A stretch of 44,582 nt of DNA from a virus. Location: positions 1 to 44,582 of IMG/VR virus record IMGVR_UViG_3300031554_000002; one strand, written 5' to 3'. A program made the translations under genes and the position numbers. How positions within the stretch are numbered: position 1 is the stretch's first letter; every line of letters begins with the position of its first letter. Shown here piece after piece: positions 12,654-44,582 of this stretch. The notes below the pieces were generated by a model. It was given only the letters and a program-made list of their open reading frames with translations, did not search any database and was not told where the DNA came from.

Positions 12654-12796
12654 GCAGTCGGCTGGTTATCGGCCCCGAACTGTCGCCTTCATGGTGTGCG
12701 TTCCGCCTAATCAGCGGATAGGGGTCAAGGTTCGAAATGGACTGGGCGTTGCTCAGTCGGCGTAAGTGGCTCCCATTGGGAGCCACCTCGCTTTTA
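12654..12796 (+). ncRNA. Candidate structured RNA 2 between promoter and hairpin
   Basis: About 140 bases from the predicted start to the hairpin at 12766-12786 and CTTTT. It has a tRNA-like D-arm (GTCG, nine-base loop with GGTTA, CGGC, near 12657-12673) and the T-loop-like string GGTTCGAAA (12729-12737), but no paired T-stem, so it is not a functional tRNA. It may carry the phage attachment core, since integrases of this type often use tRNA genes. Confidence 0.3.
12766..12796. terminator. Strong hairpin downstream of integrase
   Basis: GTGGCTCCC (12766-12774) and GGGAGCCAC (12778-12786) form a nine-base-pair stem with loop ATT, followed on the plus strand by CTCGCTTTT. It lies just beyond the integrase stop (12794) and could end transcription from both directions, though the T-run is good on neither strand. 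Confidence 0.5.
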
Positions 12797-14215: not shown

Positions 14216-14483
14216 TCCTTCCATCCCCGACATCATCCAACTCATGCGGCGTCAGGCTGCGCGGCTGGCTGCGGCGATCATTGCAGAGAGGCAACGTCGG
14301 GCGGAATGGGCGCTGCGCCAAGATATCGCCCATGTCCTCCGGCAAGAGCCTGCGTCCTTCGATGAAGGCTGGCCGCTAGGGGATGCTTACCCCAACCGCT
14401 TCCTGCTACAGCGCATCGTAGAGCGCGGGGGCAGGCACCGATACTCCGAGGGTTCATGGCCCTACGAGGCTGCGAGGAACTGA
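14208..14483 (+). CDS. Small helical hypothetical protein
   Basis: 91 residues from ATG 14208, which overlaps the preceding stop. Long Arg/Ala-rich helix (MRRQAARLAAAIIAERQRRAE) suggests nucleic-acid binding or a coiled coil. No family recognised. Confidence 0.5.
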   Translation: MTDPSIPDIIQLMRRQAARLAAAIIAERQRRAEWALRQDIAHVLRQEPASFDEGWPLGDAYPNRFLLQRIVERGGRHRYSEGSWPYEAARN

Positions 14484-19213: not shown

Positions 19214-20021
19214 GCGGTTCCTGACGCCCGACATCTGGAGCGATTCCTTCTTCGTGAAGCTGTCGCCACAGGAGCGCTTGCTGTTCATTGGCATGATCAC
19301 GCTGGCTGACGATGAAGGGCGATTACGGGCCGCGCCCTCTTATCTCAAGGGAGAAATCTTCCCAGAAGACCGTGTAACCGAGGCCACAACCCGCCAATTT
19401 CGTGATCGGATCACTGCACTGAACCGCTCAGTTCAGCTCTACAAGGCTGCGGGAATGGAGTATGTTCAGCTTCGCAACTGGTCCAAGTACCAACGCCCAT
19501 CGCACCCCTCTCCGTCACGCCTACCAGCCCCCCGTAGATACAAAAAGCCGCCCATTTCCTCCAGAGAAGATCGGGAGGAAAACCCGAAGAAGGTAGGAGA
19601 AAGGCGCGACCTGGGTTTGGGGGTGGGGAGGGGTATGGGTTTGGGTAAGGGATCGGGATCTAACCCCCCTGTAAGTCCCCCCAAGGGGGGACATGAATCC
19701 TTCCAGATCAAACGAGTCTCCTTAGAATCCCAGAATGGCGATGCGGTTAATCTCTGGGATAAGGCTTTAGCGGAACTCCAACTACAGGTGACGAAGCCGA
19801 ATTACGAGACGTGGCTGAAGGGTTCGGCGGGGTATGTCATCAACGACGACAAGCTGATCGTGGTTGCGGCCAACGAGTTTGCCGTGGATTGGCTGTCAAC
19901 GAAGCTTGGGCCTCTGTGCGCCAAGACGGTGAGTGGATTAGCGGGGAAGCCGATGGAGGTAGAGTTTGTTCTTGAGGAGGAGAGCGATGGAAGAGGCGCT
20001 GGAATATTTGAAAGAGCTTAA
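19203..20021 (+). CDS. Replication initiator: winged-helix N-terminus fused to DnaA domain I
   Basis: 272 residues from GTG 19203. Residues 1-100 (ARKRFLTPDIWSD, LSPQERLLFIGMITLADDEG, VQLRNWSKYQRP) match the winged helix of phage replication proteins of the DnaD/O group. Residues 100-180 are a Pro/Gly-rich linker. Residues 184-258 (LWDKALAELQ, KPNYETWLKGSAGYV, NEFAVDWLSTKL) match DnaA domain I, which recruits helicase or other partners. No ATPase or DnaA domain IV is present. It probably binds the phage origin and loads host DnaB through the domain I module. Confidence 0.75.
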   Translation: MARKRFLTPDIWSDSFFVKLSPQERLLFIGMITLADDEGRLRAAPSYLKGEIFPEDRVTEATTRQFRDRITALNRSVQLYKAAGMEYVQLRNWSKYQRPSHPSPSRLPAPRRYKKPPISSREDREENPKKVGERRDLGLGVGRGMGLGKGSGSNPPVSPPKGGHESFQIKRVSLESQNGDAVNLWDKALAELQLQVTKPNYETWLKGSAGYVINDDKLIVVAANEFAVDWLSTKLGPLCAKTVSGLAGKPMEVEFVLEEESDGRGAGIFERA

Positions 20022-20259
20022 GGGGGTATGGCCTAGAGATTGGTCATTGGCACAGCTGGACAAAGCCATCGCAGCCCTCTCTGCCCCCTGCCCTATCTGC
20101 GGGGGCAAGGAGCCGCTGGCGGTGGAGAAGGGGCGGTTATATGAGGATGGCGGGCCAGGATGGTGCGACTTGGCAATAGAGCAATGGATTGAGGCTGAAC
20201 CGCAGGATGTCCGCATCCTCATCTTCGATGCCCTGCCCGCCAAGGAGGAGGGATCATGA
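19987..20259 (+). CDS. CPICGG-family mini-protein, copy A
   Basis: 90 residues from ATG 19987 with GGAGGAGAGCG upstream, overlapping the initiator gene. W...LDKAIAAL then CPICGGKEP (residues 35-43), with a single CxxC. Bases 19993-20115 are 119 of 123 identical to 25029-25151 in copy C. The tail ends PAKEEGS. Function unknown. Confidence 0.6.
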   Translation: MEEALEYLKELKGVWPRDWSLAQLDKAIAALSAPCPICGGKEPLAVEKGRLYEDGGPGWCDLAIEQWIEAEPQDVRILIFDALPAKEEGS

Positions 20260-25020: not shown

Positions 25021-25298
25021 ACAAGGATGAGGCGCTGGAATATTTGAAAGAGCTTAAGGGGGTATGGCCTAGAGATTGGTCATTGGCACAGCTGGACAAA
25101 GCCATCGCAGCCCTTTCTGCCCCCTGCCCCATCTGCGGGGGGAGGGAGCCGAAAGCGAATATGGTGGTTAGAGTTCCCAACCCAGAAGCACCAGCCAGAG
25201 TTGAATCCAGCCTCAACATTTTGTGGGGGGCGTGGCCCTCTATTGAACCTGGGGAACTTGTGCGCGTCCTCATCCTGCCCGCCGAGGAGGAGCCATGA
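25017..25298 (+). CDS. CPICGG-family mini-protein, copy C
   Basis: 93 residues. The first half is nearly identical, in DNA as well as protein, to copy A (19987), while the second half (VESSLNILWGAWP) differs. Ends PAEEEP. ATGA-coupled to copy B. The sharp change from near identity to no similarity at the CPICGG end suggests recombination of a module. Confidence 0.6.
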   Translation: MNKDEALEYLKELKGVWPRDWSLAQLDKAIAALSAPCPICGGREPKANMVVRVPNPEAPARVESSLNILWGAWPSIEPGELVRVLILPAEEEP

Positions 25299-28379: not shown

Positions 28380-28465
28380 CTCTCTGTCCCTCCTGTCCGT
28401 CTGCCTCTTCAGCATTGGGCGACGAACCCCAATGGACGCCCTTGCGGGCGTTTCGGCGCTAGAAG

Positions 28466-32305: not shown

Positions 32306-32340
32306 TTGACACCTATAGAAAAGTGCTATAATGGGAAACA
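32306..32340 (+). promoter_or_regulatory. Strong late-type promoter 1
   Basis: TTGACA (32306-32311) and TATAAT (32327-32332), the latter with the extended TGC. The 15-base spacer is short but the extended -10 compensates. The ATG of the next gene (32340) is eight bases after the -10, making a leaderless or nearly leaderless mRNA. Confidence 0.7.
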
Positions 32341-32513
32341 TGGAAGTGTTCCCGCTTTCGCGGGCTGAGAGGGAGGGCATCATGGAGATGCGCCGCCATC
32401 TTGCCGATGCCCGCAAGCGGGGGGATGAACGGTGCGACATCACATGGATATGGCACGGAGGGGAACTGCACCGCTTTGAGGTGTTGACTAAACATTTACT
32501 TAATTTGAGATAG
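32340..32513 (+). CDS. 57-residue leader protein
   Basis: From ATG 32340 (an ATG at 32331 lies inside the -10 and cannot be used). Helical N-terminal half (RAEREGIMEMRRHLADARKR) and WIWHGGELHRFEVLTKH. Its TAG is one base before the shared 25-base element. Its location between promoter and terminator suggests a leader gene whose translation could influence termination. Confidence 0.5.
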   Translation: MEVFPLSRAEREGIMEMRRHLADARKRGDERCDITWIWHGGELHRFEVLTKHLLNLR

Positions 32514-32514
32514 A

Positions 32515-32539
32515 AGGCCGATAGCAGGAAGCGAGGCCG
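32515..32539 (+). promoter_or_regulatory. 25-base late-operon element, copy 1
   Basis: Identical, base for base, to 42845-42869. Begins AGGCCGATAGCAGG and ends GCGAGGCCG, which becomes the left arm of the terminator stem. Lies between a strong promoter and the terminase operon. Confidence 0.9.
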
Positions 32540-32558
32540 CCCAAAGGGGCGGCTTTTT
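32536..32558 (+). terminator. Intrinsic terminator after element copy 1
   Basis: GCCGCCC (32536-32542) pairs with GGGCGGC (32547-32553) around AAAG, then TTTTT (32554-32558). Only 14 bases before the ATG at 32573, so downstream genes need readthrough or antitermination. Confidence 0.85.
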
Positions 32559-32572
32559 CTTATGGGGGCTTT

Positions 32573-32944
32573 ATGTTTAAGGCGAAGGAGATTGAGATAA
32601 CCGCTGATGGCAAAAGGCGATTTCCTCTATACGCGCTTATCGGTGATCGCTCTTGGCGGCGGGATTTTGGTTTTACCTGGCCAGTACCTAGCACATTTCG
32701 CTTAAGCCCGAGGCGCTACCGTTTCGTGGGGCGTCGTCCTGAGTATGGCGGTGGTGCGGGCGAATACGCCCGCCCCTGGGTACTGTGGGCGGTTCTACGC
32801 CTACGCCAGAGGGCTAAGGATTCCTTCTGGTCAGGAATGAATTGGTTGTATCGACGCGGCATCATCCATTTTAGAACACCAGAGACTATGAGGTTCCGTT
32901 GGCGTGATCTGGGACTAGGCCCCGATCCGAGAATGAAGGGGTAA
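32573..32944 (+). CDS. Protein preceding the large terminase, unknown
   Basis: 123 residues, basic and aromatic: FPLYALIGDRSWRRDFGFTW, FWSGMNWLYRRGIIHFRTPE, RWRDLGLGPDPRM. No HTH or small-terminase pattern. GGGGGCTTT precedes the ATG and it ends three bases before TerL. By position it could be a packaging accessory. Confidence 0.5.
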   Translation: MFKAKEIEITADGKRRFPLYALIGDRSWRRDFGFTWPVPSTFRLSPRRYRFVGRRPEYGGGAGEYARPWVLWAVLRLRQRAKDSFWSGMNWLYRRGIIHFRTPETMRFRWRDLGLGPDPRMKG

Positions 32945-32947
32945 TTC

Positions 32948-34324
32948 TTGGAATTCAAGCCTGTCTCCGACAACCAAAAGAGATTCGTCCTGGATGACGC
33001 GCACCGTGTCGTGATCGCTCTTGGCGGTCGCGGTTCGGGCAAGACTCACATCGCTGTCGTGAAGGCGCTCAAGACCGCCTTGGAGTATCCAGGGAGCCAG
33101 ATGAAGTTCGTAGCTCCCGACCTGGAACGACTGGATGAAGGACTTCTGAACAAGTTTAGGGAGTTGTGTCCGCCGTCCTTATTGGTCAAGGAATACATCC
33201 AGAAGCGGCGCTTTGAGCTAGCCAACGGCTGCACGATCAACTGGCGCTCAGTGGACATTCCTGGCGGACTGAGGGCAGGGGAGCAGAACCTTGACGCCTT
33301 CGATGAGGCGGCGTGGGCACCCTATTCCCAGGCCAAGCGAGCCGTTGGGGACTTGTTAGCGAACCTCCGACTAAAGGAAAGAATGTTGTGGTGTCCTAAC
33401 GAGTGGATTGGGGAGCATCCTTGGATCGAGGTTTTAGAGCGAGGGAAAGAACGGTCTTACATCAGAGTCACATACAAGCACCAACTCCTCATTACGACTA
33501 CCCCCGCCATCGGCTCTTTCATCAACGAACTCCTAGAGGCAGGAGACCCCGAAGGTATCAGGACTTATCGCCTGAAGACAGAGGAAAACGCAGGGAACCT
33601 TCGTGAAGGCTATCTCGAAGACCTGAAGGAAGCCTACACGGGTGCCCTCTTCCAGCAGGAGGCGCTGGGGGAGCTTATCGGCGTCGAGAGCGCCCACTAC
33701 CCCATGTTCGATGTGAAGCGTCACGTTATGGGGGCACCTACCGACTTCCGATTGGTTGTTGGCGGGATCGACTGGGGCTGGTCGGCCAAACTCGCCATCG
33801 TCATTTATGGGTTCACATCTTCGGGGGTTGCCTTTGGGCTGGAGGAGTTCGTTGCCGACCACGTTACCAGTGATCGGCTGATGCTCAAAGCCCAAGAACT
33901 CAGAGAGAAATACAAAGTCCAACGCTACTTCTGCGATCCCGCTGAAGGTCGCTCCATTGCCGATCTCAACATGCACGGCATCCCCGCATCGAAGGCCGTT
34001 ACGGTTGACAAGATGTATCGCGCCTCAAGGATCGCCTCTCGGTTGGAGAAAGGCCCGATGGGGACTTACAGGTTCTACCTCGACCCATCTATGAAAGAGA
34101 CGATTAGGGCTTTCCGTCTCGCGGGAGATACGGTCGAAGACCCCAAGAAAATCAAGGAAATCAAGAGCGGCAGGCCAGGGGACGACCCATTAGATGCTAC
34201 CGAATACGCCATCTGTGGGGGCGAACTGCTGATGGGCGCACCCGTTGGGGCCGTGTTTGGCCGAACCCATAAAAGGCACGAGGGGGAAAGGCCCGCCTTG
34301 TCTGTCCCGTTTCGGCTCTTGTAG
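32948..34324 (+). CDS. terL: Terminase large subunit
   Basis: 458 residues from TTG 32948 with AAGGGG upstream. Walker A GGRGSGKT (26-33), Walker B LDAFDE (115-120), and a C-terminal RNase-H-like nuclease with GGIDWGWS (about 272-279) and FCDPAEGRSIADL (about 330-345). It drives ATP-dependent DNA packaging and cuts concatemers. The rare TTG start may hold its level down. Directly followed by the portal gene. Confidence 0.93.
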   Translation: MEFKPVSDNQKRFVLDDAHRVVIALGGRGSGKTHIAVVKALKTALEYPGSQMKFVAPDLERLDEGLLNKFRELCPPSLLVKEYIQKRRFELANGCTINWRSVDIPGGLRAGEQNLDAFDEAAWAPYSQAKRAVGDLLANLRLKERMLWCPNEWIGEHPWIEVLERGKERSYIRVTYKHQLLITTTPAIGSFINELLEAGDPEGIRTYRLKTEENAGNLREGYLEDLKEAYTGALFQQEALGELIGVESAHYPMFDVKRHVMGAPTDFRLVVGGIDWGWSAKLAIVIYGFTSSGVAFGLEEFVADHVTSDRLMLKAQELREKYKVQRYFCDPAEGRSIADLNMHGIPASKAVTVDKMYRASRIASRLEKGPMGTYRFYLDPSMKETIRAFRLAGDTVEDPKKIKEIKSGRPGDDPLDATEYAICGGELLMGAPVGAVFGRTHKRHEGERPALSVPFRLL

Positions 34325-34333
34325 GAGAACAGG

Positions 34334-36181
34334 ATGCTTCCTTATACTGGCGAACTTTCAGACGAAAAGCTGACCAAGTTAGTGGCGAGGGCCAAAGAGT
34401 ATAACCAACCCACCCATGCCCTTCAAGAGAAGGCCCGCCAGTTCCGACGGATGCAACAGGAAGTCTCCATGCCACCAGGCACCAGGAAGACCGCCATCCA
34501 GGTCAGAAACGCCTTCATCTTTGAGATGGTTCACCGTATGAGTTCTGCCGTGATCCAGAACTTCCCTTGGGTTGAAGCCACCCCCGACGATATCACCCAG
34601 GAAGGGGAGCGCAGGGCTTCTAAGAAAGAGCGGCATACGGTTGCGGCCATGAAGAGGGCGGCACTAGAGGCGGGGACGCACCAAGACCCGTTTCCGAGGA
34701 TAACCTGGGCGCAGATGGGCGACGGGATGGGGGTTTCTAAGTGGCAATATCGGCCCGACAGGTGGAAGCCCTGGCCGAAAAGGAACGGCCAGAGTGCTTC
34801 CGAGTATATGAAAGCCGTTGACCGTTGGAAGATGTCCCACTTCCCCTTTATCTGGCGCTCGGTTGATCCCCTAACTTATTACCCCCTTTATGGAGATGAG
34901 GACAAAGTATTCGTTGCGGAGATCAGCCGTAGGGCTGTGGCCGACCTTGAATACACCTTCGGCGAGGATAAGGTCAAGAACGTCACGGAACTTTTAGAGT
35001 ATGGGAATAGGACAGAGAGTATTGAGTTTCAAGAACTGACCACCCTCTCTCACATCTACTATCGCGTCAACGACAAGACGATTCATAAAGTTCCTCACGG
35101 CTGCCCTTTCATTCCCTACTACGAGGCGCGGGGAATCACTACCGAGTCGAATACCCCAGGCCAAGACTCTCTACCCCTACCGTTTGGGTTGCTGAAGTAC
35201 GCACCCTTGTTGGACACCATGTTTACCGTGATCGCTGAAGGGTTCATGGTGGCGGGTATCCCAACACCGTTCTTGAAAGTAGACGCTAACAGCCCCGAAT
35301 ATGCCAGGTTGTTCGGGCCTGACGGTAGGCCTATTGAGCAGAGTATCGCGTTGGGTCAGATCAACCCCGTCCAAGGCGATCTCACACTACCCTTAGCCCA
35401 AGCGCTCCCTACCATCTTGAACGAGTCCCTGAAAAGCATCATGGGGCTTGCCGAAGCTACCATGCTACCGCCAGCGATTCGAGGACAAGGGATCGGGTCG
35501 GACTGGTCGGGTTATCTCGCCAATACCGTCCTACACGTCGTCCTGTCTCTCTTGGCGGGGCCGCTTCACAACCACGAGGCGGCTTTGAGTAAGCAAATCC
35601 GTGATTATTGGTGGGCGATTCAACATAAGTTAGGAACCGAAGTCTGGGCTTGGGCGCGGGAGAAGAGTTCCAGAGGGAGGTGGGCGTCGTTAGGCCCGCA
35701 GGACATTCGGGACTTTTACGAGGTCTACGTCCATATGCGGCCCTCGCTCCCGCGTGACGACGCTCAGAGAGCGCAAACAGGACTGCAACTCTGGCAGGCA
35801 GGGGCCATTTCGTTGAGAACCTTCCTCACTCAATGGCTGGAAATGGACTATCCAGACGAAGAGGAAGAGAGGATCATGCTCGAACGCCTCTTCAAGAGCC
35901 CTGAGATGGACGCTCTGAGATTGGCCGCATTGATGCGGCGACTCGCTCCCGACAGCCCGATCATTCAGGAGATTATGAGTAGGCTGGCCCCTGTTCTAGA
36001 GCAGCCCGCACTACCCCCAGGCCAGCCAGGGGCGCAGCCAGGACTACAGGAAGCGGGAGCGTTCGAGGCGGGGGCGCTAGGTGGTGGGGTGCCTGGTGGC
36101 GAAGGCGCGGTGCCTTTCGTTGGTGGAAGGCCGTCTGGAATGCCGACGGCTGTTCCGACGGGACCGAGAATGGGGCCATGA
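34334..36181 (+). CDS. Portal protein
   Basis: 615 residues. Long helical protein with RNAFIFEMVHRMSSAVIQNF near residue 57-77 and a central segment PFGLLKYAPLLDTM, and a C-terminal Pro/Gly/Gln-rich tail (PPGQPGAQPGLQEAG). Size and position directly after TerL fit a podoviral-size portal ring subunit that the DNA passes through. TAGGAGAACAGG precedes the ATG. Confidence 0.8.
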   Translation: MLPYTGELSDEKLTKLVARAKEYNQPTHALQEKARQFRRMQQEVSMPPGTRKTAIQVRNAFIFEMVHRMSSAVIQNFPWVEATPDDITQEGERRASKKERHTVAAMKRAALEAGTHQDPFPRITWAQMGDGMGVSKWQYRPDRWKPWPKRNGQSASEYMKAVDRWKMSHFPFIWRSVDPLTYYPLYGDEDKVFVAEISRRAVADLEYTFGEDKVKNVTELLEYGNRTESIEFQELTTLSHIYYRVNDKTIHKVPHGCPFIPYYEARGITTESNTPGQDSLPLPFGLLKYAPLLDTMFTVIAEGFMVAGIPTPFLKVDANSPEYARLFGPDGRPIEQSIALGQINPVQGDLTLPLAQALPTILNESLKSIMGLAEATMLPPAIRGQGIGSDWSGYLANTVLHVVLSLLAGPLHNHEAALSKQIRDYWWAIQHKLGTEVWAWAREKSSRGRWASLGPQDIRDFYEVYVHMRPSLPRDDAQRAQTGLQLWQAGAISLRTFLTQWLEMDYPDEEEERIMLERLFKSPEMDALRLAALMRRLAPDSPIIQEIMSRLAPVLEQPALPPGQPGAQPGLQEAGAFEAGALGGGVPGGEGAVPFVGGRPSGMPTAVPTGPRMGP

Positions 36182-36399
36182 AAAGGGACGACTGGGAGTG
36201 CGAGTTCGGGCCGTTTCATATCTTTGACCCAGAGGACATAGAGGTGTGCTTCGGTTGCCAGATAGTCACGTTTCATTGTGCGAATTGTGAGAGGCCGATA
36301 GCGAAGATGGCGTTGAGGGATTGCCCAGAGGAGACGCACAGAGTTCTGGCCGAGCTAGCCTTGAACCTGGGAGATGGTAATGGCCGAGAATCCCATTGA
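36178..36399 (+). CDS. Small zinc-finger protein
   Basis: 73 residues, ATGA-coupled to the portal. CFGCQIVTFHCANCERP gives CxxC...CxxC. Acidic N-terminus (DDWECEFGPF). Function unknown; placement between portal and internal proteins is unusual for a zinc protein. Confidence 0.55.
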   Translation: MKRDDWECEFGPFHIFDPEDIEVCFGCQIVTFHCANCERPIAKMALRDCPEETHRVLAELALNLGDGNGRESH

Positions 36400-36613
36400 G
36401 CGTGACGTAATCGCCGCCGAGGGTGTTCTGCGCCGCGAGTTTGACATCATCGAGAAGGCGGCGGGAAACGTCGCGCCCGTTGGGAAGAGGCTGCTCACAC
36501 GCCGCGAGAAGCTGATGCGCTCACTCGCTACCCCCGCGAAGACGTGGACGCCCGCGCAGAGCGAGTTCGTACTGAGAGAACTTCTGAGGATGAAAGATGG
36601 CGGAAAACCTTAA
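36374..36613 (+). CDS. Small helical protein
   Basis: 79 residues from ATG 36374, or 77 from ATG 36380 with GGGAG upstream. Helices EGVLRREFDIIEKAAG and LTRREKLMRSLATPAK; TPAQSEFVLRELLRMK. No motif. Overlaps both neighbours. Confidence 0.45.
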   Translation: MVMAENPIERDVIAAEGVLRREFDIIEKAAGNVAPVGKRLLTRREKLMRSLATPAKTWTPAQSEFVLRELLRMKDGGKP

Positions 36614-37823
36614 AGCACTCGTTCAGAAGAAGCTCCAAGACAGGGGATTGAGTGAACTCTGGCCCGTGATTGACCGCGTGGTGCAGTTGGAATCGAGTTG
36701 GAACCCCAACGCCCATAACACTAAAGGCGAGGACTCGGTTGGGCTGTTCCAGTTGAACCGCGCTGGCGGCTTGGGGTCGGGTTACTCAGTAACCCAGCTT
36801 ATGACGCCTGAGACCAACATCGAAATCGCCCTGAGCGCCATTGAGGGGGCGCTGAAGGGCGGTAAGAGCGTAGAGCAGGCCCTTTCCCCCTGGACAACCT
36901 CAAAGACGGCACTACAAGGTGGTGGAACTATGACAGAACCGATAACCGCAGCAGGTGGTGTAACTATGGCGAAAAATCAGTCTTTTTGGGATTGGCTAGA
37001 GGAACAGGGATTTATATCTGGGCCGCAGAGCTATGTCATCGAGGCGACGGGTGAGACCGTCACCCTTCCAGGTGGGGGACTCAAAGATGGTGTTACCGCC
37101 AATATGATCAATGATCTCTGGGCGCAATTCTCTGGTTCTCAGGGGGCAGGCGCGACACCACAGGAAACCGCAGTCAGTCAACAGGGCCTTGACATAGCAC
37201 TCGCTAAGGCGCGGGCAGAGCTGAAGGAAAAACCCTTAGAGTGGGTTGCGCAGAAGTTTGCTAACGACATCGCCGCACTACAGGAGGGGCGCAGCACAGC
37301 CGAGTACGCGCAAGAGTACGCGAGTAACATTGCGCCGCCAAGTATGACTACCATGCCCTACACTGGCCCCACGAGTGCGGTCGGGCAGTTGCAGCAGAAG
37401 ATCGGCATGACGCCATCACCCGCCCTCCCGCTACCGCTCGCCCCTGCGAGCGGGCCTTATGAAGCATTGGGTCAAGCCCAGCAGTACGTTCCCCAATCGC
37501 CCAACTTGCAGTTCAATGCACCATCGCTTCCGCAAAGCGCACCCAACCTTGCGGGCCTCAGCGGCTTCCCGCAGACGATGGGTGGGGATATGAGCGGCAT
37601 GGGTGGGGGCATGGGAGCGGGCATGGGCATGGGAGCGACGGCGGGAGTTAGCCCATCGACGCTGCCTGTGGATATTAGGCAACTGTTCTCTGGTTCGCAG
37701 ATTCCGACTAGTGGAACCGCTGGGATGATGGGATGGGGGAACTCTTTGCTACAGGCTATTCAGATGCTTGGCCTTAGAGGGGCTATGGCAGGGCAAGTAG
37801 CACAACTTCCGATAGGAGCATGA
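36597..37823 (+). CDS. Virion-associated lytic transglycosylase (SLT-like)
   Basis: 408 residues. Residues 24-85 match the SLT lysozyme fold: VQLESSWNPNAHN (catalytic Glu near 31), then DSVGLFQLN and INIEIALSAIEGAL. It would cut peptidoglycan locally during DNA ejection. Residues 125-290 are soluble with a possible second start at MAKNQSFWDWLEEQ; residues 330-360 are a Met/Gly-rich repeat (MGGDMSGMGGGMGAGMGMG). Located between portal and internal proteins, as in podoviruses. Confidence 0.75.
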   Translation: MAENLKALVQKKLQDRGLSELWPVIDRVVQLESSWNPNAHNTKGEDSVGLFQLNRAGGLGSGYSVTQLMTPETNIEIALSAIEGALKGGKSVEQALSPWTTSKTALQGGGTMTEPITAAGGVTMAKNQSFWDWLEEQGFISGPQSYVIEATGETVTLPGGGLKDGVTANMINDLWAQFSGSQGAGATPQETAVSQQGLDIALAKARAELKEKPLEWVAQKFANDIAALQEGRSTAEYAQEYASNIAPPSMTTMPYTGPTSAVGQLQQKIGMTPSPALPLPLAPASGPYEALGQAQQYVPQSPNLQFNAPSLPQSAPNLAGLSGFPQTMGGDMSGMGGGMGAGMGMGATAGVSPSTLPVDIRQLFSGSQIPTSGTAGMMGWGNSLLQAIQMLGLRGAMAGQVAQLPIGA

Positions 37824-37824
37824 T

Positions 37825-38988
37825 ATGGCTGGACAATACGGCGCAATTAACATTCCTCTACCCGAAGAGAACTACTTACTTGACTCCTACCTCGTGGGTA
37901 TCGGTATGCAGGAGGAGGCAGCTACCACTCGGTTTAGTGCTCAGGAGCAGCGGCTTCATAGCGAATTTCTCGCGGACTTGGATAGGTTGGAGGAAGAGGC
38001 TCAGCTTCAGTATCAGCAGGCCGTTGAGGTTGCCCGTATCTACGCAGGTGCGGACAGCGACTATGCGCGGGCTGTTGTTCAGAAAGCCAACATTGACGCC
38101 CAGGCAGCGATTGACGCAGCCAACATCGCCGCCGCTGCTAAAAAGTATGACGCCGATACCCAGTTGAAGATCGCCAAGATGACGACTGGTTTGGAGCGGC
38201 AGCGGATTGCCGCTGTCGAACTGGCGCAGCCTGGGGATTGGCTGGCTCGTGTCGGTTTCTTCCGAGGCCAGACGCCAGAACAAGCAAAAGCCCTTACTCA
38301 GTATGGCGGCGGGACAGTGTTCGGCGGGCAGATTCCAGGGGCAGCAGAAACGACTACGCTACCGCGTCCTGCATACGGAGGTTATCCCCAAGGTATCGCA
38401 GGAGAGGCGGGGCCAGAGGTTGTAACAGCTACGCCCGAAGGTGTGCAGATTAAGCCCATAGCCAACCCAAGACAGAGACTACCGAACCTGCCACGCTTTC
38501 AGTATGGGGGTAGTATGCCGTATCCTCAGTGGGGGAAACCTCTTACTAAGCCGCAGTTGCCCAGTTTGAATCAGCCTACCAATCCTGCGACATCTAGCTG
38601 GCAGAAGCAACCTAATTGGGGGCAGCAAACCGACACGGCCACGCCCGCTGCCCCAGCAGAGTCGCCCGTCAACCAGCTTCCATTCCTTCAGTATGCCCGC
38701 GCTGGCGGGCAGCAGGCAGTTGCGCCTTTCCAGGCATGGACAGGGCCGACGACAATCCCAGCGGCGGGAATTACAACCGATGTTCCTCCGCCCTGGCAAT
38801 ACAACATCGTTCAATATCAGAACATGAGCCGTCCTGAACAAGCGATGCTGGCGGCAACTTGGCGCGGGTTGGGTATGATTGCGGGCGCGACGGAAGAAGA
38901 GATGATCGCCAACGCTTATGAGGCAATGAGCCGTTCGGCCTGGACTGGGGCGCAGATTCCCGCCGTTACTCAGTATGGGAGCTGGTAG
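37825..38988 (+). CDS. Internal virion-type protein with coiled coil
   Basis: 387 residues. Residues 20-130 are an Ala/Gln/Glu coiled coil (EEEAQLQYQQAVEVARIYAG); residues 160-310 are Pro/Gln/Gly/Thr-rich and probably disordered (TTLPRPAYGGYPQG). AGGAGCATGAT precedes the ATG. Position next to the transglycosylase and the 1195-residue protein suggests it is ejected or forms part of the internal core. Confidence 0.5.
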   Translation: MAGQYGAINIPLPEENYLLDSYLVGIGMQEEAATTRFSAQEQRLHSEFLADLDRLEEEAQLQYQQAVEVARIYAGADSDYARAVVQKANIDAQAAIDAANIAAAAKKYDADTQLKIAKMTTGLERQRIAAVELAQPGDWLARVGFFRGQTPEQAKALTQYGGGTVFGGQIPGAAETTTLPRPAYGGYPQGIAGEAGPEVVTATPEGVQIKPIANPRQRLPNLPRFQYGGSMPYPQWGKPLTKPQLPSLNQPTNPATSSWQKQPNWGQQTDTATPAAPAESPVNQLPFLQYARAGGQQAVAPFQAWTGPTTIPAAGITTDVPPPWQYNIVQYQNMSRPEQAMLAATWRGLGMIAGATEEEMIANAYEAMSRSAWTGAQIPAVTQYGSW

Positions 38989-41900
38989 TGCCCGAATCCT
39001 GGGAGAGCGCATCCGACGCTGAGTGGGAAGACCTTGAGCACGAGATTCTGCGCGTCTTCGGGGTTGGCCCGCGCCCGATACAAGAGGCGATAGGCAAAGT
39101 CCTCGAAGTCAAGCCGCCCGTTGAGAAGAAAGCCAAGGCGCTTTCCCTTGAGATGTTAGGTGCCACCAAGCCTGCACCAACGACGGTCGAAGAGAAGATA
39201 AAGGCTGAGGGTTGGGTTCCGTTAGCCACTAAGAAGGCGGCTGAGGAGCAAGGCCCACCCGCTAATATCTTCGAGCAGGCCACAACGCCGCTCCTGCCCC
39301 ATCCCGCGAGAGAAGCCATTAGTGGCGTTCCCATTGTTGGGCCAGTGGCCGAACCTATTATTTCAGGACTAACTAGCCCCGCTGGAATGGCTGGCGCTTT
39401 CTATTTTCCTGGCATAACCGCTGGCATGGTTGCGGGCGGGATAGCTGGTGGTACAGCAGGTGCGGGTTTGGAAGAGGCAGGCTTTAAGCCTGAAGTAGAG
39501 ATAGGCCCTACAACCTGGGGGCCTCGTGGCGTAGGTGAGTTAGCAGGCACCCTCGCTGGCCCTGCGGCCATTCCCGCTCTCGTACGTGCTACTGTGCGAG
39601 GCGCAGCCGCCCTACCAGAGATAACTACGGAGCGCGTGATGCCTGCTGCGCGGCGGGCATTGCTAGAGGAGGCAGGGGGGCCTAAGTGGAAGCCACCGAA
39701 GGGGCCACAGCCCGTAGGCAAGGAAGAGGCAATGGCTCGTTGGCGGGCAGGCTTAGGCGCTGGGAAGCCACCACCAGGCAAGCCACCAGTTGCGCCGCCC
39801 CCCACGGGCGATTCGGGCACAGCACTCAACGATTACTTCGCGGGCGCTCCCGCAAGCGAAAAGGCCCAGCGAACGCTCATACGACGATATGAGGGCGAGG
39901 TAGCATTAGAGAGGGATTTGTATGGGCAAGAGCTTATCCAGGCTCGTAGGCAGGCTGGAAAGGCTCCGCAGTATTTCTCTGCAACCGAATCGCCCCAATC
40001 GGCAGACATCATTCAGGTCATAGATTATCCAGGGCCAATCGAGGAAGCTATCGCCAAGATTGGCCTTCCGCCCGAAGCCGCTGAGACAGCCCGCACCCTG
40101 CGTCAAATTCTGGATCAGGAAACGGCGAAGATGAAGGCCATGATCCCAGGCTTTGAGGGGCGTCAGTGGTATTACCCGCATGAGTATGTGCCTGTTACCG
40201 AGAAGGTGGCAGTAGGTCGAGGCGGTGGGCGGGGTCGGTTCGGAGCCAAGCCTGGATTCACGCGCCAACGGAAGCTAGAAGGGACAATCTTAGATAATTT
40301 GGCTGAACGGCCAGACCTGACACTCAAAACGTGGGATGCCATTGAAACCGTTGAGCGTCGCGTCTATCGAGGGATCATCTATCGTCAGCAAACGGTCATG
40401 CTTCAAAACTTGAAGCGCACTGGCCTAGCGTTGCCCGCATCTGAGGTAGTTGAGGAAAGTTGGCGTGTGCCTAAGATTGGCCCTGCGTTCGAGAGTAAGC
40501 CAGTACCAGGCAAGCCAGACGTTTACACACAGCCCTGGGCTGTTCCTCGTGATATCGCCAAGGCTCTGGAAGATCACTTCGGCACGTCTGCCTTCAATGC
40601 GAATGTTCCCCTACGTGTCATGCGTGAGGCCATTGCAACGGCCAAGTTCGTTAAGGTACTCGGCGGCCTCTTCCAGAATATCGACTATTCGACACGAACG
40701 CTGGGCTACGCTACCAAGTATCGAGACATCGCCATGATTGGGGAGGTTCCCAAGGCTCTTGCTAGGGCTTATGTTCCTGGCTTGGACGCCAGGGTTCGTG
40801 CGCTGGAACTCAAAGACCCGATCATTCGGGCTTTATATCGACATGGTTTGAACCGCGAGGCTGGGCTGGGATTTGTCGGCCCTGAATACGAGAGAATAGC
40901 GGGCGAACTCACTATCTACAAGATTCCGATACTCGGAAAGGCGGCAAAGGCTTTTGGGAGTGGAACCTTCCGTAACGCTCACAACTCATTTGTTACTGGT
41001 CTTGGAAGACGGGTGACACAGAATTACATGAAGGGTGGACTGTCACTGGACGAGGCGGCTGCCAAGGCTGCCCTTAATATCAATGAGAGTTTTTCGTCTC
41101 TTCCTAATTGGCAGAGTGCCTTCCGTAACCCGACGACACGAGACTTTATGCGAACCTTCGTGTTCTCGATGGCTGAACAAGAATCATGGATCAGGATGCC
41201 CTTTAGACAGAAAACCCTCCTTGTGTCCATTCTTTTCGACGTGGTAGCAGCGGCCAACATTCTCAACTACGCTTGGCATGGTGAGTTTCTACCCGCGAGT
41301 GCCTACAAGCCGTTCGAGAATATCCCAGGCGTTGACTATGATCCAACAAAAGAAGGCCCCAAGATGTTGGGCTACAACACTGGTTTCCTGCGGGCTGAAC
41401 TCCCCTACGCAGGGCCACTGGGCAGAAAGGAATACCTTGATCTTCTTGGTCAGGCCGACACCCCAATCCGAATCCTAGCCGATCCTGAGTTCGCCGCTGT
41501 AACTAGGCTAGGCCAGCTTCCCAGCGCCGTGATGCAGGCGTATAAGGGCGAGGAGACCTTCGGGGAAAAGAAAATTGAGGGATTGCCAGGATGGGGTAAG
41601 TTCGCCGCCAAACAGGTAGCCCCAATCCCCGCAACTTCGGTCTTTGAGGAATCCCAACGTATCGGAACGGTTGGCGCTCTACTTCAAGCTGCTGGACTCA
41701 ATGTTTCCGCCGAGCGGCTAGGGCCTCTTTTCCTTCGTCGTTACAAAGAACTGACAGGCAAGGATGAGAAGCCAGATATCGGAGAGATACGGGAGGCCAT
41801 TAACCAATACCCTGAACTTTTGGATATCCAAGTCGAACGGGAGAAGGCTGGCGCAAAGTTGGGCGGCGATATACAGGCCGAACTTCTTGCCCGACGCGAC

Positions 41901-42575
41901 GAAACTGAAGCTCAGTTGGCACAGATGATTCAGTCAGGCCAAGCTACAGGCGTAGAGTTCCGCGACGCCTACAAGGACTTTCAAGCAGAGCGGCGCACCC
42001 TTAACGAACAGCGTGAATACAAAGAGAGGGAGGCAGTAAGCCCAGAGGAAGACATCGCCTTCAAGTATTGGGACGTTGAACTCCAAACGGGTGCTGACGG
42101 CCTATCGGACTGGGACACCTTCTTTGCCGAACGCGATGCCATCTTACAAGAGAACGCTGACAAAGTACCCGTCCAGACGATGAAGACGTGGTTGCGGGAT
42201 TACGAGGCTAACTTCTGGCGCGACGATACTGTGAGGGCCAAGGTAAACGAAATGCTCGACGCCGAGGCCGTCATGGAGACGTACTACAGCATTCCAGCCA
42301 AACAAGGTATGTCTGCTGAGACTGGTAATCGGGCGGCGAAGATAGTGGCTAAAGCGCAGGCTACGGCCAGCGGCACGGGATTGTCATTTGAGGAAGCGCT
42401 GGCAAAGGTGGTGCAGAACAAGGGTGAGTGGGAAATAGCTCTCTTGTTCCGACAGTTGCCCGACAGTCCTGTGCGTAAAGCCTACAAGACGAAACACGCT
42501 GCTGCCTTCGTTTGGTTCTCTGACGTTCCATTGGGCATTGAGGTGGGCCAACTGGAAACGGCAGGCATAAGATGA
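38988..42575 (+). CDS. Large internal virion / ejection protein
   Basis: 1195 residues from GTG 38988, sharing one base with the previous stop. Residues 105-165 are Gly/Ala-rich and hydrophobic (GMAGAFYFPGITAGMVAGGI), a possible membrane-inserting segment; residues 225-275 are Pro/Gly-rich; the remainder is helical and charged, with repeated Glu/Lys segments after residue 900. Size, position and composition match ejection proteins such as the T7 internal core or N4-type virion proteins, without a clear enzyme motif. It is last in the terminase-portal transcript. Confidence 0.55.
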   Translation: MPESWESASDAEWEDLEHEILRVFGVGPRPIQEAIGKVLEVKPPVEKKAKALSLEMLGATKPAPTTVEEKIKAEGWVPLATKKAAEEQGPPANIFEQATTPLLPHPAREAISGVPIVGPVAEPIISGLTSPAGMAGAFYFPGITAGMVAGGIAGGTAGAGLEEAGFKPEVEIGPTTWGPRGVGELAGTLAGPAAIPALVRATVRGAAALPEITTERVMPAARRALLEEAGGPKWKPPKGPQPVGKEEAMARWRAGLGAGKPPPGKPPVAPPPTGDSGTALNDYFAGAPASEKAQRTLIRRYEGEVALERDLYGQELIQARRQAGKAPQYFSATESPQSADIIQVIDYPGPIEEAIAKIGLPPEAAETARTLRQILDQETAKMKAMIPGFEGRQWYYPHEYVPVTEKVAVGRGGGRGRFGAKPGFTRQRKLEGTILDNLAERPDLTLKTWDAIETVERRVYRGIIYRQQTVMLQNLKRTGLALPASEVVEESWRVPKIGPAFESKPVPGKPDVYTQPWAVPRDIAKALEDHFGTSAFNANVPLRVMREAIATAKFVKVLGGLFQNIDYSTRTLGYATKYRDIAMIGEVPKALARAYVPGLDARVRALELKDPIIRALYRHGLNREAGLGFVGPEYERIAGELTIYKIPILGKAAKAFGSGTFRNAHNSFVTGLGRRVTQNYMKGGLSLDEAAAKAALNINESFSSLPNWQSAFRNPTTRDFMRTFVFSMAEQESWIRMPFRQKTLLVSILFDVVAAANILNYAWHGEFLPASAYKPFENIPGVDYDPTKEGPKMLGYNTGFLRAELPYAGPLGRKEYLDLLGQADTPIRILADPEFAAVTRLGQLPSAVMQAYKGEETFGEKKIEGLPGWGKFAAKQVAPIPATSVFEESQRIGTVGALLQAAGLNVSAERLGPLFLRRYKELTGKDEKPDIGEIREAINQYPELLDIQVEREKAGAKLGGDIQAELLARRDETEAQLAQMIQSGQATGVEFRDAYKDFQAERRTLNEQREYKEREAVSPEEDIAFKYWDVELQTGADGLSDWDTFFAERDAILQENADKVPVQTMKTWLRDYEANFWRDDTVRAKVNEMLDAEAVMETYYSIPAKQGMSAETGNRAAKIVAKAQATASGTGLSFEEALAKVVQNKGEWEIALLFRQLPDSPVRKAYKTKHAAAFVWFSDVPLGIEVGQLETAGIR

Positions 42576-42583
42576 TGTGGTTT

Positions 42584-42757
42584 CTAAGGACAATCTCCCT
42601 GGTTCACACATGATTCCTTCAGGTATGCACATGGCTCCCACAGGAATAGCATCACAATGACGATGGCAATCAGTAGAAATATCCATCGTGGCGGGACACT
42701 CCAGAAGTTTATGAGATCGATTAGCCCTCGCCTTAACCATTGCCAGTATTTGTTCAT
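42584..42757 (-). CDS. Small single-span membrane protein, opposite strand
   Basis: 57 residues on the minus strand: basic N-terminus (WLRRGLIDLINFW), one strong membrane span PPRWIFLLIAIVIVMLFLW, and a tail with three Cys (CAYLKESCVNQGDC). GGAGGTGCGGAT gives an ideal ribosome-binding site. It sits between two late units, against their direction. A spanin-, antiholin- or superinfection-exclusion-like role is possible; no lipobox is present. Confidence 0.6.
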   Translation of the reverse strand: MNKYWQWLRRGLIDLINFWSVPPRWIFLLIAIVIVMLFLWEPCAYLKESCVNQGDCP

Positions 42758-42791
42758 ATCCGCACCTCCAACGGATCATAACACACCAGAA

Positions 42792-42825
42792 TTGACAACG
42801 GGAGAACCACTGGTATAATTTAAAG
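42792..42825 (+). promoter_or_regulatory. Strong late-type promoter 2
   Basis: TTGACA (42792-42797), 16-base spacer, TGGTATAAT with TATAAT at 42814-42819. Near-ideal sigma-70 promoter. Transcription should start near 42826, 19 bases before the 25-base element. It drives scaffold, capsid and, across the circle join, the structural genes. Confidence 0.85.
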
Positions 42826-42844
42826 CGTAATCGAATAGGCATTT

Positions 42845-42869
42845 AGGCCGATAGCAGGAAGCGAGGCCG
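42845..42869 (+). promoter_or_regulatory. 25-base late-operon element, copy 2
   Basis: Same 25 bases as 32515-32539; flanks on both sides differ, so the match is not from a larger duplication. Its first GGCCGA (42846-42851) could also pair with the terminator's right arm TCGGCC (42882-42887). Confidence 0.9.
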
Positions 42870-42893
42870 ACGCATTTTGCGTCGGCCTTTTTT
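42865..42893 (+). terminator. Intrinsic terminator after element copy 2
   Basis: GGCCGACGC (42865-42873) pairs perfectly with GCGTCGGCC (42879-42887) around ATTTT, followed by six T. It lies 13 bases before the scaffold ATG, after a strong promoter. Confidence 0.92.
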
Positions 42894-42906: not shown

Positions 42907-43713
42907 ATGGCGAAGAAAGCACAGCCTTCCACGCTTGAGGAGACGCCACTTCCAGTGCCAGAGGCCGAGCCTTCGGAAGTCCCTACGCCAGTAGAGACAG
43001 AGGAGGCCAAGCCGAAGGAAGAGGGAGAGGTAGAACCTGAGCCAAAGGAGGAGAAGCCCGATTTCGCCACCCTGCTCGCTGGGCTGTCTAAGGATGAGCG
43101 CAAGGCACTTCTCAAGGAAAACCTTGGGGAAGAGCTTTCGAGCTTGGAGCAGGCGGCTAACGACAGGGCGTGGGAGAAATTGCGGGGCGAGCAGCAGCGC
43201 CGAGTTCAGGCCAATCAAGAGCTTCAGGACACCTTGAAGAATCTTGATGGGGCAGAGGACGACAACAAGAGGGCGGGCCATATTCAGGCTTACGCCGACA
43301 GGATGCTTCAGACGGCATCGCAACAGTGGGCTTTGGAGGCGCTGGATAACCTACGGGAATCCCTTGGCGTGTCGCGTGAGGAGCACGACGAGATCGTTCT
43401 GCGGCTTCATCAGGCGGCGTCTAGGGAGAACCGCGTAGCGACCTTCGGGGACTACGTGAAGCACGTAACGGGAGAGAAATTCATGCCTAGGCAGGAAGTC
43501 AAGAAGGCGCTCAAGGAAGAGGTTAACGCCATCCTAGAGGAGCGTTTGGGCAAAGAGAGAGACAAGGAACCATCTCCCGTTTCTTTGGGGCCAGGGGAGC
43601 CTTCTAACCAGGAGGCAGCGGACAACAGAACCTTATCTGACCCTAATGCGACTGGCGAGCAGAAGGCAGACGCCTTTGAGCGACTGTATGGATACCGCCC
43701 GCGAAACATTTAA
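42907..43713 (+). CDS. Scaffolding protein
   Basis: 268 residues from ATG 42907 (TTAGGAGTTGAA upstream; the longer frame would translate the terminator). Acidic, Glu/Pro-rich N-terminus (residues 10-50), central coiled coil (NDRAWEKLRGEQQRRVQANQ), and basic C-terminal helix region. Composition, length and position just before the capsid gene are those of phage scaffolds, which fill the procapsid and are removed at maturation. No protease gene was found. Confidence 0.75.
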   Translation: MAKKAQPSTLEETPLPVPEAEPSEVPTPVETEEAKPKEEGEVEPEPKEEKPDFATLLAGLSKDERKALLKENLGEELSSLEQAANDRAWEKLRGEQQRRVQANQELQDTLKNLDGAEDDNKRAGHIQAYADRMLQTASQQWALEALDNLRESLGVSREEHDEIVLRLHQAASRENRVATFGDYVKHVTGEKFMPRQEVKKALKEEVNAILEERLGKERDKEPSPVSLGPGEPSNQEAADNRTLSDPNATGEQKADAFERLYGYRPRNI

Positions 43714-43723
43714 GGAGATTTAA

Positions 43724-44582
43724 ATGGCCGCAGGCAACACCACAACGGGGTCACTGGCTGACAGCCTGCCTACCATTATCGCTGAGGCACGAGTGGTCAG
43801 GGAGTTTCCAGGCCAGGTGCCGAAGTTGGCAGACAGGTATCGTCTGGATGAAGGCGAAGGGCTCGACTGGAACGAGATCGCCCTTTCCCAGATGAATGCT
43901 CAGGCCGTGACTGAGACTACGGTTCTGGACAATCCCCAGCAGTATGCCGACACGCTCCTGACGATCACGCCGACCGTGACGGGGATCACAACCATCGTGA
44001 CCGACCGCACCTACAGGCGGATCAGCAAGAACGTGGCGGGGCAGATGGGCGGGGTTGCCCAGGCCGCTATCGAGAGGAAAAAGGACGAAGACGGGCTAAC
44101 AACCCTGGACGGTGCAACGATTGAGTTGGGGGGCACGGGAACCCCTGTGGAGTTCTCCGACTTCTCGCACGCTGTTGACAGGGTGAAAGTTGGAGACTCA
44201 AACGAGCCGTCCAACAGCCCGATTTATGGTGTGCTTCACGCCTACCACATCACCGATGTCAAGGATCAACTCGTGGCAGGTATCGGCACCTACAACATCC
44301 CCAAGGGCATTTCGGAAGACACGTTCAAGCGTGGCTTCAATGGAACCCTTGGTGGAGCCAACATCTTCGAGGACGGCAACATCGCCATCGACACCACCCC
44401 CGATTGCAAGTCCTTCATCTTCGCCCGCTTCGGGCTGATTCTCGTAGAGGGCCATTCCCTCCGTTCCGCAACTAAGCGGCGCGACGAATATGGCGGTGGA
44501 GCCGACCAGCTCTTCATCTATGACGAATACGCCTATGGCGAGCGTTTGGCGGCTGCAACGACAGGCGCTTTCATCGCTGAGA
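43724..44582 (+). CDS. Major capsid protein, N-terminal part (continues at base 1)
   Basis: Starts at ATG 43724 after AAGGAGATTTAA and runs off the window in phase with 1-156, total 295 residues. It begins MAAGNTTTGSLADSLPTI and includes TRRISKN-like YRRISKNVAGQMGG and GIGTYNIPKG. The residue-20 to 100 arm-and-domain layout fits HK97-fold coat proteins. Called mainly by position after the scaffold and by length. Confidence 0.8.
   Translation, partial: MAAGNTTTGSLADSLPTIIAEARVVREFPGQVPKLADRYRLDEGEGLDWNEIALSQMNAQAVTETTVLDNPQQYADTLLTITPTVTGITTIVTDRTYRRISKNVAGQMGGVAQAAIERKKDEDGLTTLDGATIELGGTGTPVEFSDFSHAVDRVKVGDSNEPSNSPIYGVLHAYHITDVKDQLVAGIGTYNIPKGISEDTFKRGFNGTLGGANIFEDGNIAIDTTPDCKSFIFARFGLILVEGHSLRSATKRRDEYGGGADQLFIYDEYAYGERLAAATTGAFIAE
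44456..44582. repeat. Terminal direct repeat (assembly overlap), right copy
   Basis: The last 127 bases equal 1-127. They encode the capsid segment from SLRSATKRRDEYGG onward, so the capsid gene is complete only when the ends are joined. Confidence 0.9.

Follow-up and report, generated by a model that had tools for sequence, protein, structure and literature searches.

Paired hairpins overlapping the terminators of two virion operons point to a late attenuation switch in a phage of probable Chloroflexota hosts

The window, i.e., the whole 44,582-nucleotide stretch of viral DNA analyzed here (IMG/VR record IMGVR_UViG_3300031554_000002), features identical ends of 127 bases (1-127 = 44456-44582), and the contig is therefore probably circularly complete. 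The phage carries an integrase gene and is therefore probably temperate. On the host side, the nearest signals were found in Dehalococcoidia-class and other Chloroflexota contigs, and its hosts are probably uncultured bacteria of the Chloroflexota. Apart from the late region, the window contains an 86-base direct repeat with identical copies (19993-20078 and 25029-25114), a type II hammerhead ribozyme on the minus strand (28395-28458; RF02276, 50.1 bits) and a DUF3800-IX RNA on the plus strand (12667-12736; Rfam RF02968, 41.4 bits vs. a cut-off of 36.8), which adjoins the integrase gene just 3' of a promoter-like site. The two late operons, terminase-portal and scaffold-capsid, comprise the following features:

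32306-32332, plus strand: promoter-like sequence upstream of copy 1, TTGACA-15-TATAAT with extended -10 (TGC), read directly
32340-32513, plus strand: small ORF of 57 codons (MEVFPLS...LLNLR), ending 2 bases 5' of the copy 1 hairpin
32515-32539, plus strand: 25-mer copy 1, putative antiterminator hairpin, GGCC(32516-32519)-GATA-GC-AGGAA-GC-GA-GGCC(32535-32538)
32533-32556, T-run to 32558, plus strand: predicted intrinsic terminator 1, about -19 kcal/mol
32573-32944, plus strand: ORF, first gene of late operon 1
32948-34324, plus strand: terminase large subunit, terL (PHROG 2, E 1.5e-19; PF03237)
34334-36181, plus strand: portal protein (PHROG 64, E 1.3e-4)
42792-42819, plus strand: consensus promoter before copy 2, TTGACA-16-TATAAT with TG extended -10 (12/12)
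42845-42869, plus strand: 25-mer copy 2, putative antiterminator hairpin, GGCC(42846-42849)...GGCC(42865-42868)
42863-42889, T-run to 42893, plus strand: predicted intrinsic terminator 2, about -22.5 kcal/mol
42907-43713, plus strand: scaffold-like gene, first of late operon 2, called from position and composition (Pfam match absent)
43724-44582, plus strand: putative major capsid protein, called from position; the gene overruns the record end and continues beyond the 127-base end repeat

The 25-mer AGGCCGATAGCAGGAAGCGAGGCCG occurs as exact plus-strand copies at 32515-32539 and 42845-42869, and a third site was not found in the window at up to three mismatches (0 of 100 shuffles). This is in line with the first-pass annotation, which had described an identical, 25-base element at both late operons. 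It had also stated that both copies feed into a terminator stem 13-14 bases before the first gene, and indeed the two terminators (32533-32556 and 42863-42889) are the two top-scoring terminator-like sites of the region, with 14 bases between T-run and ORF at 32573 and 13 bases at 42907. A strong promoter before both copies, as likewise described, was present for copy 2, with about 26 bases between promoter and element, but not for copy 1. There, the promoter is located about 185 bases upstream with the 57-codon ORF in between, and directly 5' of the element merely TTGACT-17-GAGATA is found; the 15-base spacer of the promoter at 32306-32332 lies outside the spacer range of the promoter scan. 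A small membrane-type ORF with a good ribosome site, read by eye, is situated on the minus strand (42600-42770) between the gene for a 1195-aa protein and the copy 2 promoter, and a similar one occurs in the relative L032.

Neither the exact nor a shortened 25-mer had a match in IMG/VR, and a DNA search of the phage GenBank collection for the 25-mer gave nothing relevant. Many relatives were reached by using the putative capsid protein as query. With terL, one close relative only was obtained from IMG/VR, together with distant Chloroflexota-type matches that were devoid of the element. The late regions most like that of the window belong to the phages L031 (capsid 85%, terL 42% identical) and L032 (capsid 53%, terL 67% identical), portal identity in the two closest relatives amounting to 73% and 50%. 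In L031, a 21-base string precedes both terL (1773) and the scaffold gene (12390), and in L032 a 15-base string is found at the same two places (2859 and 13210). Within each genome, the repeated string is identical and the flanks of the two copies differ. In IMG/VR scans, each of these strings was found exactly twice, both times in its own contig, and accordingly each phage has a private element. Three phages, namely the window, L031, and L032, are known with both copies. Absence of the 25-mer from relatives, which had been named as refuting the reading, thus applies literally, but both loci of the relatives carry an identical pair of another sequence with the same structure. The view that conservation concerns the element and not the hairpin has to be reversed, as across genomes the hairpin is kept whereas the sequence changes. 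In L031 (near 1825) and L032 (near 2897), the terL start lies within a few bases of the terminator T-run and a Shine-Dalgarno sequence is absent outside the hairpin, so that the hairpin might affect terL translation too.

Upon RNA folding, the six elements of the window, L031, and L032 adopt the same or a closely similar shape, consisting of a 4-bp stem, an internal loop, a 2-bp stem, an apical loop that is rich in A and 4-8 bases long, and then the 3' arm. The internal loop starts with GA on its 5' side (AA in one element) and features GA on its 3' side (A in L031). For copy 1 of L031, the minimum-energy fold uses a slightly different register, with the common register also being possible. 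Each of the six putative antiterminators ends in a 3' arm that is at the same time the first part of the terminator 5' arm, which is the overlap looked for in a mutually exclusive attenuator; because of this common arm, only one of the two hairpins can form at a time. The antiterminator is roughly 10-19 kcal/mol weaker than the competing terminator, and a switch which is off by default and turned on by a factor is therefore the natural reading. In single leaders, the terminator 5' arm pairs with the sequence upstream only a little better than in shuffled leaders (p 0.06-0.17), and the argument thus rests on the comparison across genomes. No Rfam family scored above its cut-off at either element. 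A kink-turn reading of the internal loop, judged by eye, did not fit.

When 393 Dehalococcoidia-class genomes were searched with the capsid alignment, one contig, G168, was obtained. Upstream of its scaffold gene lie a small ORF, a hairpin (CGCT-GAC-GG-AAAAA-CC-GA-GGCG) and a terminator which uses the last arm of this hairpin; a search for a second copy in this genome returned merely an unrelated site with two mismatches. Covariance analysis, proposed earlier as a check, revealed compensatory changes in the stem. When the window (identical copies counted once), two copies each of L031 and L032, and G168 were combined, 24 of 24 pair cells of the 4-bp stem were standard pairs, five stem cells were changed on both sides and none of 500 shuffles reached the covariation score, these counts being based on few sequences from which the structure itself was derived. 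The six copies of the three phage genomes, to which the same limitation applies, pair in all cells, and their score was reached by one of 500 shuffles. The signal was lost when the partner arm was slid. The arm common to both hairpins has a C in the terL copy and a T in the scaffold copy of L031 and L032, which costs the terminator only a G-U pair. Nevertheless, the antiterminator 5' arm changes in step from G to A, and this points to selection acting on the antiterminator helix itself.

Beyond these genomes, a descriptor of the hairpin with overlapping terminator, applied to both strands of 1.37 Mb, matched at five places, all of them late leaders, vs. an average of 0.3 in shuffled sets (three in ten). 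L031 falls outside this descriptor owing to its different inner stem, and G168, having been inspected before the descriptor was fixed, is not a blind match. A covariance model assigned 22-30 bits to the known elements and at most 16 bits to all else in the phage loci. Applied to the 393 Dehalococcoidia-class genomes, the model (R1) returned weak scores and no convincing new member, and its matches with a T-tailed hairpin nearby contained no new leaders. The most element-like of these matches, L203, is apparently located within coding sequence. Terminators as such are widespread in the group: a terminator of -9 kcal/mol or lower is found at the scaffold start in 18 of 44 non-redundant capsid relatives vs. 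13 of 412 other ORF starts (3%). Often, a consensus promoter stands no more than 100 bases ahead of this terminator, which is combined with other leader sequences, e.g., GAGAGCAC in L004, L006, and L025, or the AGTGCG(C) class in L104, L105, L109, L116, L128, L015, and L024. In these seven relatives, AGTGCG(C) stands a few bases before a GTCGCC-type terminator ahead of the scaffold gene. The more distant relatives feature the terminator without an antiterminator of the window type. Second copies with at least 11 identical bases were not found among the distant relatives, nor was a second copy found for the AGTGCGC class, and upstream of the distant relatives' terL no convincing second copy was detected except in G020. 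In the latter, each of the two loci has a promoter and a terminator; they share a short string, but no hairpin is common to the two.

The best explanation for these findings is a shared late attenuation or antitermination switch for the terminase-portal and scaffold-capsid operons, as the first-pass annotation had suggested, given that the pair recurs in two relatives and that the hairpin shows compensatory changes. We consider it fairly probable, judging from sequence comparison, that a factor-stabilized antiterminator resembling the ribonucleic antiterminator (RAT) opens both late operons. By default, the stronger hairpin, i.e., the terminator, would form and transcription would stop ahead of the virion genes. 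The 25-base element would act as the weaker antiterminator hairpin, its 3' arm being the terminator 5' arm. The loop and the internal loop would be recognized by a phage-specific factor, most likely a small RNA-binding protein synthesized at an earlier stage of infection. By stabilizing the antiterminator, this factor would admit RNA polymerase to both operons simultaneously. We infer that termination and read-through really occur at both leaders and that such a trans-acting factor exists. The latter is hypothetical, as antiterminator families (Q, N, BglG/CAT, ANTAR, and others) were not found among the 74 window ORFs at E 1e-4, including the Q protein families PF06530, PF03589, and PF06323. 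Taken together, the paired hairpins with phage-specific loops point to an undescribed on/off switch for virus particles.

As a weak candidate for this regulator, the product of the small ORF 32340-32513 may be put forward. A homologue occupies the same place in L032 (51% identity over 43 aa), and L031 contains a weaker one. Its AlphaFold model comprises a helix and a beta-hairpin (pLDDT 77), and no match was obtained in Pfam, PHROG, or a PDB fold search. The small ORFs of the window, L031, and L032 do not match DUF2292 (PF10055); that of G168 reaches 14.2 bits, which is below the cut-off of 22, and is at most a possible homologue of the window ORF. The ATG of the small ORF lies 7-8 bases 3' of the -10 hexamer in the window (32332-32340) and in L031 (1607-1617), and its mRNA may thus be leaderless. 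A Com-like gene directly precedes the leader in L104, L105, L128, L015, and L024, with matches of the pre-leader genes to PHROG 6417 (E down to 3.5e-8) and PHROG 13819 (E 7.5e-4). Com of phage Mu is a zinc-finger RNA-binding regulator (PMC6483171). The AGTGCGC leader and the Com-like gene possibly form another regulator-leader pair, and since such genes precede these leaders in relatives, it is a reasonable idea that a small RNA-binding regulator should be encoded next to the leader on which it acts. A more far-reaching proposal, for which our expectation is rather low, would be an undescribed class of late-gene switch, in that a small RNA-binding protein encoded just before its terminator opens both virion operons, that the loops co-evolve with it and keep the switch private, and that related phages use other protein-RNA pairs, e.g., Com-like zinc fingers and the AGTGCGC leader, in the same position.

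Among the rival explanations, modification of RNA polymerase would make the element a loading or cis signal comparable to lambda Q at PR' or HK022 put RNA. The polymerase would then ignore the adjacent terminator as well as later ones, and the arm common to element and terminator would be incidental. The order, from promoter through short leader and early terminator to the late genes, indeed resembles that of lambda PR', two like copies at two operons resemble putL and putR, and relatives such as G020 and the AGTGCGC class show promoter, element, and terminator without a competing hairpin. Still, this is unlikely, as the compensatory change keeps the stem in exactly the arm shared with the terminator, distances of about 185 and about 26 bases to the promoter ill suit a promoter-bound Q site, and Q, N, or a related family was not found among the window ORFs. 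Ordinary insulation, whereby the terminators end upstream transcription or damp the late promoters and the sequence is kept for RNA stability, processing, or by recent duplication, would need no regulation and agrees with the pre-scaffold terminator being common in the group. It is considered quite unlikely, because a promoter upstream of a terminator in the same leader is of little use without read-through, and recent duplication fails to explain the identical loops, compensated stems, and unrelated flanks in two relatives.

Translation could also be involved if a ribosome at the stop codon of the small ORF covered the antiterminator 5' arm and thus favored termination, and for the copies before terL in the window, L031, and L032, this stop codon does lie 0-9 bases 5' of the hairpin. 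However, the copy 2 hairpin lacks an ORF directly before it, and a leader ORF, expected before each terminator in leader-peptide attenuation, was found before copy 1 only. Translation coupling can therefore not be the common mechanism, and we regard it as very unlikely. Finally, each promoter-terminator unit could yield an RNA of about 60 bases whose shared part pairs with targets. Copy 2 does resemble a small RNA gene (promoter, about 65 bases, terminator), and a 12-base complement of the loop occurs at 14397-14408 on the plus strand, with a chance expectation of about 0.01 on one strand. Against this, the partial genomes L031 and L032 are without a comparable complement, copy 1 is preceded by a 174-base ORF, the loop varies from phage to phage and Rfam gave no match above cut-off at either element, which renders this reading highly improbable.

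The timing of virion gene expression in phages outside well-studied hosts is largely unknown, and the late antiterminators described so far (Q, N, put) are mostly from enterobacterial phages. A private hairpin pair backed by covariation predicts a matching RNA-binding factor in a large group of uncultured phages. By analogy, the arrangement would work like a RAT or ANTAR attenuator, while belonging to neither by the tests made. Antiterminators such as BglG, SacY, and LicT act with the RAT hairpin (PMC9981650, PMC1489936). Like the latter, the window element is a small imperfect hairpin with an internal loop, its 3' side overlaps the terminator 5' arm, and several target leaders per genome share sequence. 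Unlike in RAT systems, a protein with a CAT RNA-binding domain is lacking among the 74 window ORFs (Pfam, E 1e-4), although such a factor may be host-encoded, the loop differs in each phage, and the element sits at virion genes instead of sugar uptake genes. ANTAR regulators stabilize an antiterminator hairpin that excludes the terminator, their targets being dual hexaloop hairpins (PMC8934654, PMC3369936). The mutual exclusion of both hairpins is common to the window, whereas in place of the dual hexaloop a single hairpin was found there, which comprises an internal loop and an apical loop of 4-8 bases, and an ANTAR domain protein was not found among the 74 ORFs.

The analogy to lambda and HK022, drawn in the first-pass annotation, fits poorly in mechanism, as the 3' arm of the element is itself the terminator 5' arm and the element is thus no separate nut- or put-like site. 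In HK022, two similar RNA elements (putL and putR) follow two promoters upstream of terminators, each put site forming two hairpins which are separate from the terminators and act on the polymerase without need for a phage protein. Two similar RNA elements after two phage promoters are a common trait, but one hairpin sharing a terminator arm was found in the window rather than two. Lambda Q binds DNA and the paused polymerase at the late promoter (PMC7171158). The proposed switch would fill the place held by Q in lambda, as the late virion genes would likewise be blocked by an early terminator and become accessible once read-through is enabled by a phage factor. It differs in the conservation of an RNA-level helix inside the terminator, at two operons, and the Q family was not found among the 74 window ORFs, although a very divergent Q may have escaped detection. 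With regard to Com, we know of no antitermination by this protein, and the small ORF of the window is not Com-like. In Mu, Com acts on the translation of mom (PMC6483171), in contrast to the mechanism proposed here. Nevertheless, the scaffold leader of several relatives directly follows a Com-like gene, and a small RNA-binding regulator beside a structured leader is an arrangement that recurs.
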